Assembly: GCF_023721795.1 (NCBI RefSeq)
Contig: NZ_JAMQYE010000001.1
Location: 1,922,001-1,986,000 of the forward strand
DNA from: Zeimonas sediminis
GTDB lineage: Bacteria > Pseudomonadota > Gammaproteobacteria > Burkholderiales > Burkholderiaceae_E
DNA length: 64,000 nucleotides
Direction of reading: 5' to 3'
In this document: piece by piece, positions 2,697 to 7,600 of the stretch
How the letters are laid out: the number at the start of each line of letters is the position of its first letter
Numbering within the stretch: position 1 is the stretch's first letter
Translations under genes and position numbers: made by a program
Notes under the pieces: model-generated
The model's input: only the letters and a program-made list of their open reading frames with translations
The model's database searches: none
Told to the model about the DNA's origin: nothing

Positions 2697-2711
2697 GGCG
2701 GCTCAGGCGTC
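2688..2711. terminator. Perfect 10-bp hairpin shared by two convergent genes
   Basis: GACGCCTGAG (2688-2697), loop GCGG, CTCAGGCGTC (2702-2711). The stop codon of the adenosyltransferase lies in one arm and that of the cyclic-nucleotide-binding gene in the other. There is no clear U tract on either side, so a bidirectional terminator or 3'-end protecting stem is an inference from position. Confidence 0.5.
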
Positions 2712-3290
2712 GCGCGCCGCCTCGAGGTAGGAAACCAGCTTGGCGCTGGTCTGTCGCAGCCGGTCGGAGAGCAGCTGGACCAGCTTGAGCAGGATCTTGT
2801 TGCCCAGCGCAGGCTCCTCGCTCAGCACCAGCATCAGCGCGTCGCGCGACAGCACCGCAACCCGGCAGTTCTCGAGCGTGACGCAGGAGGCGAAGCGCGG
2901 TTCGCCGTCGAACATCGACATCTCGCCGAGCGCGTGCCCGACGTGCGCGACGGCGATCCGCGACGGATAGTTGTAGCGGTTGCGCCGCAGGACGTCGATC
3001 ATGCCGTCCATCAGCAGCATCATGAAATCGCCGGGCTCGCCCTCGTTGATGATCGTGACCCCGGGCGGCGCCTCGTAGACGTACATGAAGCCGCCCAGCT
3101 TGCGGGTCTCGTCGATTTCGAGCCCCGAGAACAGCGGCGTGCGCGCCATCAGGCGATGGATCTCCTCGGCGTACTCGTTCGCCCGGCCGACCGGCACCAG
3201 CCCCAGCGCGGTCAGCCGCTCGTGGGGCGTGCGCGCCTGGCCGCCCGCCGGCGCGGTCTTGTCGGGGGCCGCCGCTTTCGTCGTCTGCAT
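2703..3290 (-). CDS. Cyclic nucleotide-binding domain protein (no DNA-binding domain)
   Basis: A 195-residue protein with one CRP-type cNMP-binding beta-roll at about 45-165. The phosphate-binding-cassette region reads HALGEMSMFDGEPRFASCVTLE, which resembles the FGE-(I/L)-A-x-x-x-x-x-x-R-x-A family motif. The C-terminal 30 residues (LVQLLSDRLRQTSAKLVSYL) form the C-helix; there is no helix-turn-helix, so it is not a complete CRP/FNR regulator. The ATG at 3290 is preferred over the GTG at 3296 because GGAGG sits at the right distance and would include that GTG. The ligand is unknown. Confidence 0.75.
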   Translation of the reverse strand: MQTTKAAAPDKTAPAGGQARTPHERLTALGLVPVGRANEYAEEIHRLMARTPLFSGLEIDETRKLGGFMYVYEAPPGVTIINEGEPGDFMMLLMDGMIDVLRRNRYNYPSRIAVAHVGHALGEMSMFDGEPRFASCVTLENCRVAVLSRDALMLVLSEEPALGNKILLKLVQLLSDRLRQTSAKLVSYLEAARDA

Positions 3291-3340
3291 TTCCACCTCC
3301 GGAAGCAGGCCCGAAGTCTAAAGCACCAATGGGAACCCGG

Positions 3341-4450: not shown

Positions 4451-4480
4451 CAAAAAAAAACCGCCGGGTTCGCCGGCGGT
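4451..4480 (-). terminator. Attenuator terminator in the aroG leader
   Basis: On the minus strand ACCGCCGG, loop CGAAC, CCGGCGGT (stem 4460-4480), followed directly by T9 (4452-4460). This is a textbook intrinsic terminator, and a rare U-run in a very GC-rich region. It sits 29 bp after the stop of the leader ORF and 45 bp before the aroG ATG, so readthrough is required for aroG expression. Confidence 0.85.
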
Positions 4481-4509
4481 CTTCATCGGATTCGGTTCAG
4501 TCCTGCTTG

Positions 4510-4593
4510 TTACGAACGCGCTCCCGACTCGTCCCGCCGCTGGCGGAAAAAGCCGAAAAAATAAAAGAAGTAGAACGCGGTGCGATGCAGCAT
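4510..4593 (-). CDS. Phe/Tyr-rich leader peptide of aroG (attenuation sensor)
   Basis: A 27-codon ORF (ATG 4593, TAA 4510). Residues 6-16 read AFYFFYFFGFF: seven Phe and two Tyr. The composition and placement match regulatory leader peptides such as E. coli pheL. After the last Phe codons the RNA carries CCGCC (4546-4542) and GGCGG (4538-4534), which can pair with each other; GGCGG can instead pair with the CCGCC of the terminator arm. Ribosome stalling at Phe/Tyr codons would mask the first segment, free the second to block the terminator, and so switch aroG on when charged tRNA-Phe or tRNA-Tyr is scarce. No good ribosome-binding site precedes the ATG. Function is inferred from layout. Confidence 0.8.
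   Translation of the reverse strand: MLHRTAFYFFYFFGFFRQRRDESGARS
4534..4546 (-). promoter_or_regulatory. Pause hairpin / antiterminator segments 1 and 2 of the aroG attenuator
   Basis: CCGCC, loop AGC, GGCGG on the minus strand, inside the leader ORF immediately after the TTT TTC codons. With one flanking base the second arm becomes CGGCGG, complementary to CCGCCG of the terminator 5' arm, giving mutually exclusive 1:2 + 3:4 versus 2:3 foldings. Confidence 0.65.
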
Positions 4594-4602
4594 GACGGAT
4601 CG

Positions 4603-4631
4603 AGTGTATGCGTTCGAAGCCCGGCGCGCAA
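4603..4631 (-). promoter_or_regulatory. Candidate sigma-70 promoter of the aroG leader
   Basis: TTGCGC (4631-4626), 17-bp spacer, TACACT (4608-4603) on the minus strand. The projected transcription start lies only about three bases before the leader ATG at 4593, so the leader mRNA could be almost leaderless. The -35 match is partial. Confidence 0.4.
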
Positions 4632-4695: not shown

Positions 4696-7600
4696 CTACT
4701 TCAGGCTGAGCTCGACACCGGCAGCCTGCTCCGGGTCCGCGGCGCCGCCCTCCTTCGGGGCGGTCAGGAACAGCCGGCCGGGCTCGATGCCGCCGTCGGC
4801 AGCCAGCCAGTCCTTGACCGCCTGCGCCCGCCGGTTCGCGAGCTCGCGCAAGGCCCCGTCGGGCAGCGCGGTCGCCTCGACCAGTTCCTTCTGCATCGCC
4901 TCGGCGGAAGGCAGATCCTTCGGGGCCGGCGCCGGGACCCTGCCCATCAGCCAGGCCTGCGACAGCAAGGCCGGGCGCTGCTCGGCGGTGATCGGCAGCT
5001 TCTCGTCGGTGCCGGCCATCGCATGCCGGATCCGCTTGAGCCGCGCCTCGAGCTGGGCCAGCTGCATCGCCTGCCGATCGGCGGCGGTCCAGCGTCCCGC
5101 GACGTCGAGCTTCAGGCCCGGCCGCTCGGTCAGCGCCTTGGCGAGCGCGGCGAGCCGCTCGCGCGCCTTGTCGTCGAGCGCGGCCCCGGCTGGCGCGAAA
5201 TCGAGCCGGGACAGTTCCTCGGCCGAACCGCCGACCAGCCCGGCGATCAGCGAGAACGGCGCGGCGACCGCCTTCACGATCAGGTTGCCGATGATCCGCA
5301 ACACGATGCCGCCGATGCTGAACTGCGGATCGTCCAGGGAGCCGCTGATCGGCAGGCGCACGTCGATGACACCGTTGCGGTCCTTCAGCAGCGAGACCGC
5401 GAACAGCACCGGCAGCTTCAGCGCGTCGGGGCTCTCCACCGGCTCCCCGAAGGTGAGCTGGTCCAGCACGATCTGGTTCTGCGCGCTGAGCTGGCCGCTC
5501 TCGACCCGGTACTCGACGCTGGCCGACAGCTTGCCCTTCTTGATGCCGTAGCCGACGTACTTGCCCGAGTACGGCGACAGCGCCGGCAAGTCGATGTCGC
5601 GCGCATCGGCGCGCAGGTCCAGGAACAGCGGCTCGCCGATCGGGTCGATGCGCCCGGCGATCGTCACCGAGCCGGTATTGTCGATGCGGCCGTCGAGCTT
5701 CAGATCGGCCACCTTCCCGCCGCCCATCTCGCCGACCGAGCCGGCCAGCCCGGTCAGGTTGGCCGAATAGTTCGGCTGGATAAAGTAGTCGCTGAAGTCG
5801 ACGTTGCCGTCGGCCAGCTCGATGCGCCCGATCCGCAGCGGCGGCGGGTCGGTCTTCGGCGGCGGCTCGCTGCGCGCGGCGGGCGCCTCGGCGGCCGGCA
5901 TCGGCGGCCCGTCGTCGGCGAGCGGCGGGCGGCCGTCGGGCGAGCCGTCGGCAATGCCGGCGCCGCCGGCGGACGCCGCCGCCGAGGCTGCGCCACCCGC
6001 CGGGGCAGGCTTGCCGTTCGCGCCCCCGGCGTTCGGGCCCTCGATCACCTCCTGCAGGTTGAAGCGCCCGTTGGGCTGGATGACCAGGCGCGATCGAAGG
6101 CCGGCGAGCTCTATGTCGCCGAGATCCACGAACAGCGGCGAGAACGTGACCCGCGTGGCCGATAGCCGCAGCGATTTCCAGCTCAGCAGGTCGGCCGGAT
6201 CCGCGCCCTCGCGGACCATGGCGGCCGGGATCGCCGCCGCGGCTTCCCGTTTCAGGCGCGCGTTCAGGTCCGTCACCGCCAGCGCGCCTTGCCAGTCGCC
6301 GCGCGGCTCGCGACCGGCAGCGACGGACAACCGGAGCCGGCCGTCGGCGGACAGCGCGCCGGAGGCGAGCGACGCGTTGACCTGGGGAGGCAGCCAGGGC
6401 TGGGCCGCAGGCAGTGGCAGCGACCGCGCCGCCAGGGTCAGCGAGACGGCGCCGGTGGCCGGCATGACGGTACCGCGCGCCGACAGCCTGCCGCCCTGCC
6501 CGACCGTGGCGGAAGCCGTCAACTGCACAGGCCGCTTCGAGTCGGTCGCGAAGTCGCGAGCCTCGACCGCGATCGCGCCGACGCGCAGCGGAGGGAAGCG
6601 CTCGCCCCGCACCGCCGCGTACTCGAGCACGACCTCGGAGCCGTCGATCTCGACCCGATCGACCGCGACCCGCCAAGCCTCGTCGTCGCCCGTCGGCGTC
6701 GCGCCGCCTTGCGAGCCGGAGCCGCCCGGGTCACTGGAGCCGCCCTTGCCCGCGCCTTCGCCCGGCGCGCCGGCTGCCCGCCACCAACCGGCGGCATCGA
6801 ACGCAGCCGTCGCGTCGCGCCGAAGCGCGATCCGGGCATCGCCGAGCGCGACCGAGCCGACCGAAACGCTGCGCGAGGCCGGATCGACCGCGACCCGCTC
6901 GACCGAGAAGCCCCCCGCGCGCACGACTTCCCGCTTGCCGTCGGCGAGCGCGAGCGAGCGCACGCCCAGCTTGCCGTCGGTGAGCTTCCAGCCGACCGCC
7001 TGGCCGCCCGAGCCATCGGCGGCGCGAACCTGGAAGCGGGTCGACGCGGCGAGCTCGCCTGCCCGCACGTCGAGCGCGAGCGACGGGCCGACCAGCCAGG
7101 CCCACGGGACCGCTGGCACCTCGGCGAGCGACGCCTCGCCGTCGACCGCGAGCGGCGCAAGCGCGAGCTGCGCGCTGCCGGCCAGCATCTCGCCGTTGCC
7201 GCCGCGGGCCGAGAGCTTCAGCGCCGCCGGCTGCGCCTGCGGCTGGCCGAGGCCGCTGGCCTCGAACTGCAACGCGCTCAACTCGAAGCGCAGGGGCTTC
7301 GGCGAGAAGGCCCGGTCGTCGAACAGAAGCCGCCCTTCGTCGACCGCGATCGTTCCGATGAACCAGGACAGCCTACCCGCCGGAGAGTCGGCCTGCGCGG
7401 CAGGCGGGGCGCCCGCGCCAGAGACCGGCCGTGTCTCCAGCGCGCGCATCACCGGCTCGAGGAATCTCGCCTCGCCGGCGCGCCGCTCGATCGCGATCTC
7501 GGGCCGGCCGATCGCCAGCCTGCCGACCGAGAGCCGCGAGCCCAGCAGGTCGAACTCGACATCCGCGAGCTCGAGCGCGGGCAGCTTCAGCAGCGCGCGA

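Follow-up and report, generated by a model that had tools for sequence, protein, structure and literature searches.

A probable ribosome-mediated transcription attenuator ahead of the DAHP synthase gene aroG in Zeimonas sediminis and many of its relatives in Burkholderiales

Introduction

DAHP synthase catalyses the first step in the synthesis of aromatic amino acids, and in E. coli and other enterics its genes are under TyrR/TrpR repression. The locus considered here raises the question of how this step is controlled in Zeimonas sediminis (Burkholderiales). Its aroG gene is the sole type I DAHP synthase match in the genome, neither a type II DAHP synthase (PF01474) nor TrpR (PF01371) was found in that genome, and the TrpR profile exceeded its cut-off in one out of 60 genomes of the order. 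In the window, by which we mean the whole 64,000-nucleotide stretch of DNA that was analysed, a preliminary description had recognized the layout of ribosome-mediated attenuation ahead of aroG, and this reading is supported by the aromatic run, the alternative pairings and the U-run that we find in relatives. It is very probable that aroG is controlled by a ribosome-mediated transcription attenuator, whose parts and conservation are described below and whose stalling, termination and response to Phe and Tyr are what the arrangement would predict. This offers a testable answer to how DAHP synthase may be controlled outside the gamma-proteobacterial lineages for which passages of one study describe reconstructed TyrR and TrpR biosynthetic regulons (PMC5343134).

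Organization of the aroG locus

Direct reading of the minus strand gives the order of a probable promoter, a leader ORF, a GC-rich hairpin followed by nine T residues, and aroG (Table 1). The aroG product scores 587.1 bits against NF006723 (AroG; cut-off 568), and the closest named locus among the matches listed is that of Lautropia sp. SCN 70-15, the AroG of which is 95% identical. The terminator stem begins 27 nt past the leader stop and the aroG ATG lies 46 nt downstream of the T run, distances previously given as 29 bp and 45 bp; the T9 terminator with its 5-nt loop and the position of the aroG ATG downstream of it stand as described. A co-directional ORF of 1304 aa lies upstream and ends at 4696, about 100 nt before the leader ORF. 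A 197-aa protein is encoded after aroG in the same direction (2703-3296, minus strand), with weak matches to CRP-like regulators that stay under the cut-offs.

Table 1. Features of the aroG leader region in the window
Feature	Position	Strand	Evidence
Probable sigma-70 promoter TTGCGC-17-TACACT	4603..4631 (predicted start ~4596)	minus	sequence; similar arrangement in many relatives
Leader peptide ORF, 27 codons + stop	4510..4593 (4593-4510)	minus	sequence reading; similar ORF in 87/95 loci
1:2 protector hairpin CGGCUU.UUCCGCC-AGC-GGCGGGA.GAGUCG, holding the last two Phe codons	4525..4555	minus	-17.8 kcal/mol, z -3.38
Segment 2, CGGCGG, within the leader ORF	4534..4539	minus	pairing with segment 3
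Segment 3, CCGCCG, common to antiterminator and terminator	4474..4479	minus	pairing and covariation counts
Intrinsic terminator (3:4) CCGCCGG-CGAAC-CCGGCGG + T9	4452..4482 (T run 4460-4452)	minus	sequence, script, covariation
aroG, type I DAHP synthase, 354 aa	3341..4405 (ATG 4405)	minus	NF006723 and PF00793 profile matches

The leader peptide and its spread among relatives

The leader peptide of the window reads MLHRTAFYFFYFFGFFRQRRDESGARS, with Phe at positions 7, 9, 10, 12, 13, 15 and 16 and Tyr at positions 8 and 11. The preliminary description was right about the 27 codons and about the seven Phe and two Tyr, and direct reading moves the run from residues 6-16 to residues 7-16. Among the 818 start positions in the window that give ORFs of 8-45 aa, this is the single one with more than five aromatic residues in any 12, and it has nine.

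We collected 110 aroG loci, comprising the best 80 of at least 581 relatives in a named collection and 30 from genomes of the family, including the window's own. Discarding loci whose upstream region (last 150 nt) was identical to another left 95, of which 87 had a leader score of at least 5; leaving out L067 and L110 gave 85, and 54 were kept at less than 92% identity. With 36 later loci the set grew to 90, and 59 of these were used for alignment A4 and covariance model R2. A mini-ORF with at least five F/Y/W in 12 residues lies upstream of aroG in 87 of the 95 non-identical loci (86 strictly, with L067 excluded), as against 22/285 dinucleotide shuffles, 3/95 reverse complements and 6/93 stretches downstream of aroG searched with the same finder. 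At a threshold of seven, 65 of the 95 loci are retained and none in any control (0/285 shuffles). A terminator follows the mini-ORF in 87/87 loci by script. Record titles place the loci in genera that include Collimonas, Herbaspirillum, Duganella, Massilia, Undibacterium, Pigmentiphaga, Achromobacter, Bordetella, Paraburkholderia and Quisquiliibacterium. Eight loci scored under five; one of them, L005, has only 199 nt of upstream sequence and a weak F-rich ORF. At L067, from a Collimonas MAG, the aromatic run and the terminator are kept, the leader frame looks shifted, and the scoring ORF is not the one adjoining the terminator.

A covariance model built from the 54 leaders (R1) matched at E <=0.01 in 221 of 399 genomes of the order, many of these matches covering the terminator end only, and by our own count of the listing it matched at full length at <=1e-5 in 105. 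About half of these 105 genomes were inspected, and in two of them the match does not precede a DAHP synthase. The 30 best matches, which include the window and several of the initial loci, all lie before a DAHP synthase and carry an aromatic leader, recognized by script in 29 of them and by eye in L137. Seventy model matches were examined; the DAHP synthase motif is present at 57, of which 53 have the leader (52 by script and again L137 by eye). Because the leader model itself selected these loci, they show where matches lie and not what share of aroG genes has a leader. Of the four motif-bearing loci without a leader, three keep the terminator, their aromatic run being degenerate or absent, and at the fourth (L163) a terminator-end match is on the strand opposite to a DAHP synthase homologue.

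Much of the order has the element, but not all of it. From families that lack a listed full-length R1 match before a DAHP synthase at 1e-5, 30 genomes of the order were taken, one per family; 17 had an AroG homologue, and the script found leader plus terminator within 350 nt in 0/22 of their loci. In a sample of the class (369 genomes), model R2 matched at full length at <=1e-12 in seven genomes. Three of them, this genome included, are of the order, and in the other four, from families f63 and f68, the match precedes aroG in every case. Three weaker full-length R2 matches that were inspected, at about 1e-4, are not before aroG.

The copies in f63 and f68 are full-length elements before aroG outside the order, and leaders from f63 look like Achromobacter ones (KPLAEEG or KPPAEEG), a likeness that may reflect transfer. 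Another observation concerns a genome bin (89% complete, 5% contaminated) with an attenuated aroG on each of two contigs, which represents either a duplicate or a contaminant.

Codon differences between leaders bear on selection on the peptide. In 125 pairs of similar leaders, which are not independent of one another and in which codon differences of more than 1 nt were left out, the synonymous share of single-nucleotide codon differences is 0.45 (199/445), as against 0.22 expected. Phe is written TTT at a fraction of 0.68 in the leaders and 0.16 in the adjoining aroG, which uses TTC, and the leader fraction is the higher one in 117 of 122 distinct leaders; possible reasons for this excess are that TTT is decoded more slowly or that pairing with segment 2 is avoided.

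Alternative pairings and their conservation

Hairpins 1:2, 2:3 and 3:4 are all able to form in the window. The CCGCC/GGCGG pairing that had been noticed after the last Phe codons is present as part of a longer hairpin, and the same GGCGG can indeed pair instead with the CCGCC of the terminator, giving a 2:3 antiterminator that shares segment 3 with it. A generic promoter and terminator scanner did not report the terminator on the minus strand; our guess is that the extension of the stem into the T run is the reason.

The preliminary description had asked whether the aromatic run, the alternative pairings and the U-run co-vary in related Burkholderiales; all three do recur in relatives, with clear covariation for the terminator and only limited covariation for 2:3 and 1:2. 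For the terminator, cells changed on both sides number 31 versus 9.7 in shuffles, and 38 versus 17.2 in a wider set. The two stricter counts, of pairs changed on both sides and of further pair types, which according to the description of the tool are least inflated by relatedness, were reached by 84 and 26 of 500 shuffles, and by 27 and 136 in the other set, and are only suggestive. For the antiterminator the corresponding numbers of cells are 20 versus 10.2 and 21 versus 12.8, carried mainly by one pair at the position adjoining GGCGG. This weaker signal is due to the near invariance of the antiterminator core; the stricter counts for 2:3 are not significant, with 419 and 422 of 500 shuffles as high (209 and 163 in the second set), and RNAalifold applied to the antiterminator region returns only the 5-bp core of 2:3, with no compensatory change. 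Among the 54 representative loci, segment 2 is nearly fixed in place at 47-65 nt past the leader ATG, and segments 2 and 3 can form at least six pairs in 54/54, a count for which the site pattern GGYGG/GGCGC was imposed.

The 1:2 hairpin is more stable than shuffles in 49 of the 54 loci (mean z -1.80). Its fixed-register covariation count is weak, and a +1 slide outscores the stated register, because the register shifts between lineages; the proposition that 1:2 pairing is not conserved was rejected, as folding shows the pairing in shifted registers. Between segments 2 and 3 the RNA is slightly more stable than its shuffles (mean z -1.11, negative in 42/54). Two features by which attenuators of this class are recognized are thus found: a short leader ORF rich in codons for amino acids made by the downstream pathway, and a mutually exclusive terminator and antiterminator with a common segment, both able to form, the covariation of 2:3 being limited.

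Ribosome position and timing

We performed a calculation in which a ribosome footprint reaching 17 nt upstream and 12 nt downstream from the first nucleotide of the A site is masked and pairing is computed before segment 4 exists. In this model, P(2:3) in the window is 0.84-1.00 with the A-site at codons 9-15, at most 0.23 at earlier codons and at most 0.03 at later ones. In the modelled window the 1:2 hairpin forms in the absence of a ribosome and is broken by a ribosome on the control codons; F7, Y8 and F16 fall outside the effective zone and Y11 falls inside it.

According to the same model, aromatic codons sit where antitermination is allowed across the 90 leaders. Their frequency peaks at 0.84-0.94 between -30 and -21 nt from segment 2, an interval with P(2:3) of 0.82-0.91; from -9 on, aromatic codons are rare and P(2:3) is near zero or zero as far as +15. 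The average is blunter than the window, with P(2:3) of 0.67-0.82 for a ribosome upstream of the densest aromatic stretch. Before segment 4 exists, P(2:3) averages 0.47 on ribosome-free RNA and 0.43 when a ribosome sits at the stop; in many leaders, therefore, the modelled 1:2 hairpin, for which average P(1:2) without a ribosome is only 0.37, protects poorly. Where the stop lies at least 21 nt past segment 2, a ribosome there leaves segment 2 unmasked (P(2:3) 0.59 at +21 and 0.71 at +24). For the completed transcript of the window the terminator is favoured at equilibrium even with a stalled ribosome (P(3:4) >=0.86), and the switch must therefore be kinetic, with 2:3 formed before segment 4 is made.

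Proposed mechanism and alternative explanations

Transcription would start just a few nucleotides upstream of the leader ATG. In a shortage of charged tRNA-Phe or tRNA-Tyr, the ribosome would stall on the aromatic run and keep segment 1 off segment 2, which would then be free to capture the emerging segment 3, so that no terminator would form and aroG would be transcribed. With both charged tRNAs plentiful the ribosome would cover segment 2, 3:4 would form and transcription would end near 4452; in the window, an RNA that is not translated would form 1:2 and 3:4 and should be terminated as well.

That both Phe and Tyr are read by the leader is suggested by codon conservation, with Tyr kept in 120 of the 122 distinct leaders and Trp present in 43. 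A leader that senses Phe only, or any slow translation, with the Tyr and Trp codons as passengers, would fit the predominance of Phe over Tyr in these leaders (592 versus 250) and the behaviour of C. glutamicum AroR, which has a Phe-Tyr-Phe leader and is described in passages of a review as unresponsive to Tyr (PMC11802643). The near-universal retention of Tyr and the place of Y11 within the effective zone of the window model argue against it, and we hold such a narrower sensor to be rather unlikely, if a serious alternative to a response to both amino acids.

The start of transcription bears on a second alternative. The -10 hexamer of the window ends 9 nt before the leader ATG, so that the 5' UTR would be about 3 nt long. 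Its -35 hexamer (TTGCGC) is a weak match, and a stricter generic scanner did not report the promoter on the minus strand. In 54 of 114 distinct leaders the best -10-like hexamer ends 5-10 nt before the ATG, compared with 11.5% in mononucleotide shuffles, and the leader mRNA may therefore be leaderless; in many other leaders, e.g., those of Massilia and Duganella, the -10 ends about 22-29 nt from the ATG. Such a predicted arrangement resembles trpL of Sinorhizobium meliloti, where the leader ORF stands at the 5' end of an RNA that, in the passages of that work describing it, starts at its ATG (PMC7298713); that trpL is a Trp attenuator of trp genes, unlike the aroG element. The near-leaderless start predicted in about half of the leaders, as described for rnTrpL in the same source, would also suit a terminated short RNA or peptide that acts in trans besides attenuation, by analogy with rnTrpL/peTrpL of Sinorhizobium. 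The peptide outside the aromatic run, however, varies between lineages and looks dictated by RNA pairing, and we consider an additional action in trans improbable.

That the hairpin is only the terminator of the 1304-aa ORF and the mini-ORF accidental, a reading to which the direction and nearness of that ORF and the silence of the generic scanner on a promoter would lend themselves, is very hard to reconcile with the mini-ORF, the near-fixed segment 2 and the synonymous excess, which recur in many families.

Relation to known attenuators

The element ahead of aroG is real, widely conserved and very probably an attenuator, and leader attenuation of DAHP synthase is already known elsewhere. The work on the aroR-aroF attenuator of Corynebacterium glutamicum reportedly originates with Neshat 2014. 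According to passages of a review, AroR controls aroF by attenuation and responds to Phe (PMC11802643); as described there, a Phe-Tyr-Phe leader precedes a DAHP synthase gene and ribosome stalling raises its transcription, as proposed for aroG, but C. glutamicum is an actinobacterium with another leader and the likeness is one of description. In Acholeplasma, the uORF motif uORFC-13-1 has been predicted before aroF, and it too combines a predicted uORF containing Phe with a terminator ahead of DAHP synthase; it is compared here by description, the parts of the source that bear on it reporting it only from Acholeplasma and environmental sequences (PMC8632094). Attenuation of DAHP synthase had been regarded as a different solution and a sensor of both Phe and Tyr as unusual; C. 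glutamicum aroF, with its Phe-Tyr-Phe leader, and the predicted Acholeplasma aroF element are precedents for such attenuation. Since the C. glutamicum attenuator is known, the kind of system is known and a Phe/Tyr leader is not unique to the present locus.

The element also shares a Phe-rich leader, alternative hairpins and a terminator with pheL-pheA and the Rfam family Phe_leader (RF01859), although pheL-pheA controls pheA and not aroG. The window scores 20.3 bits against RF01859, for which the gathering score is 55, and no Rfam family matched at its gathering score the element in the window or in 12 loci, so identity with a known Rfam element was rejected. Putative attenuators before tyrA-containing operons have been tabulated for Bordetella parapertussis and others (PMC1173090, in part), and the word aroG does not occur in the passages at hand of a survey of premature terminators (PMC2965389). 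A literature search that covered mostly titles, abstract starts and passages found no account of this aroG element; Vitreschak 2004, on proteobacterial attenuators, and Neshat 2014 lay outside its scope and may already describe a beta-proteobacterial aroG attenuator.

A wider proposal, which we put forward tentatively and regard as somewhat less than an even bet, is that this unnamed attenuator family is what chiefly controls transcription for the entry step of the shikimate pathway in much of the former Betaproteobacteria, with the charging of Phe and Tyr tRNAs (and of Trp in some lineages) acting as an OR gate, the leader mRNA being leaderless in about half of the lineages, and that it replaces the TyrR/TrpR control of enterics. 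The approximately 120 distinct leaders would constitute a natural set for the study of codon choice, ribosome spacing and hairpin balance in attenuation, possibly in a leaderless version, and the features that most merit a test are the dual response to Phe and Tyr and the predicted leaderless start.

Leaders ahead of other genes

Two model matches in family f27 have F/Y/W-rich leaders (MVTFSVVYNVYFYWYRSSGG.. and MITFSAVFNAYFYWYRSSRR..) and a terminator before an ORF of about 220 aa, which at the first of them (L147) gave no Pfam match; they are perhaps attenuators of an unknown gene. In a further genome (G177), a leader reading MNQNRFAFYGFYWWRPA and a terminator precede a gene that resembles trpS on sequence reading, an arrangement that is likely a Trp attenuator of a tRNA synthetase.
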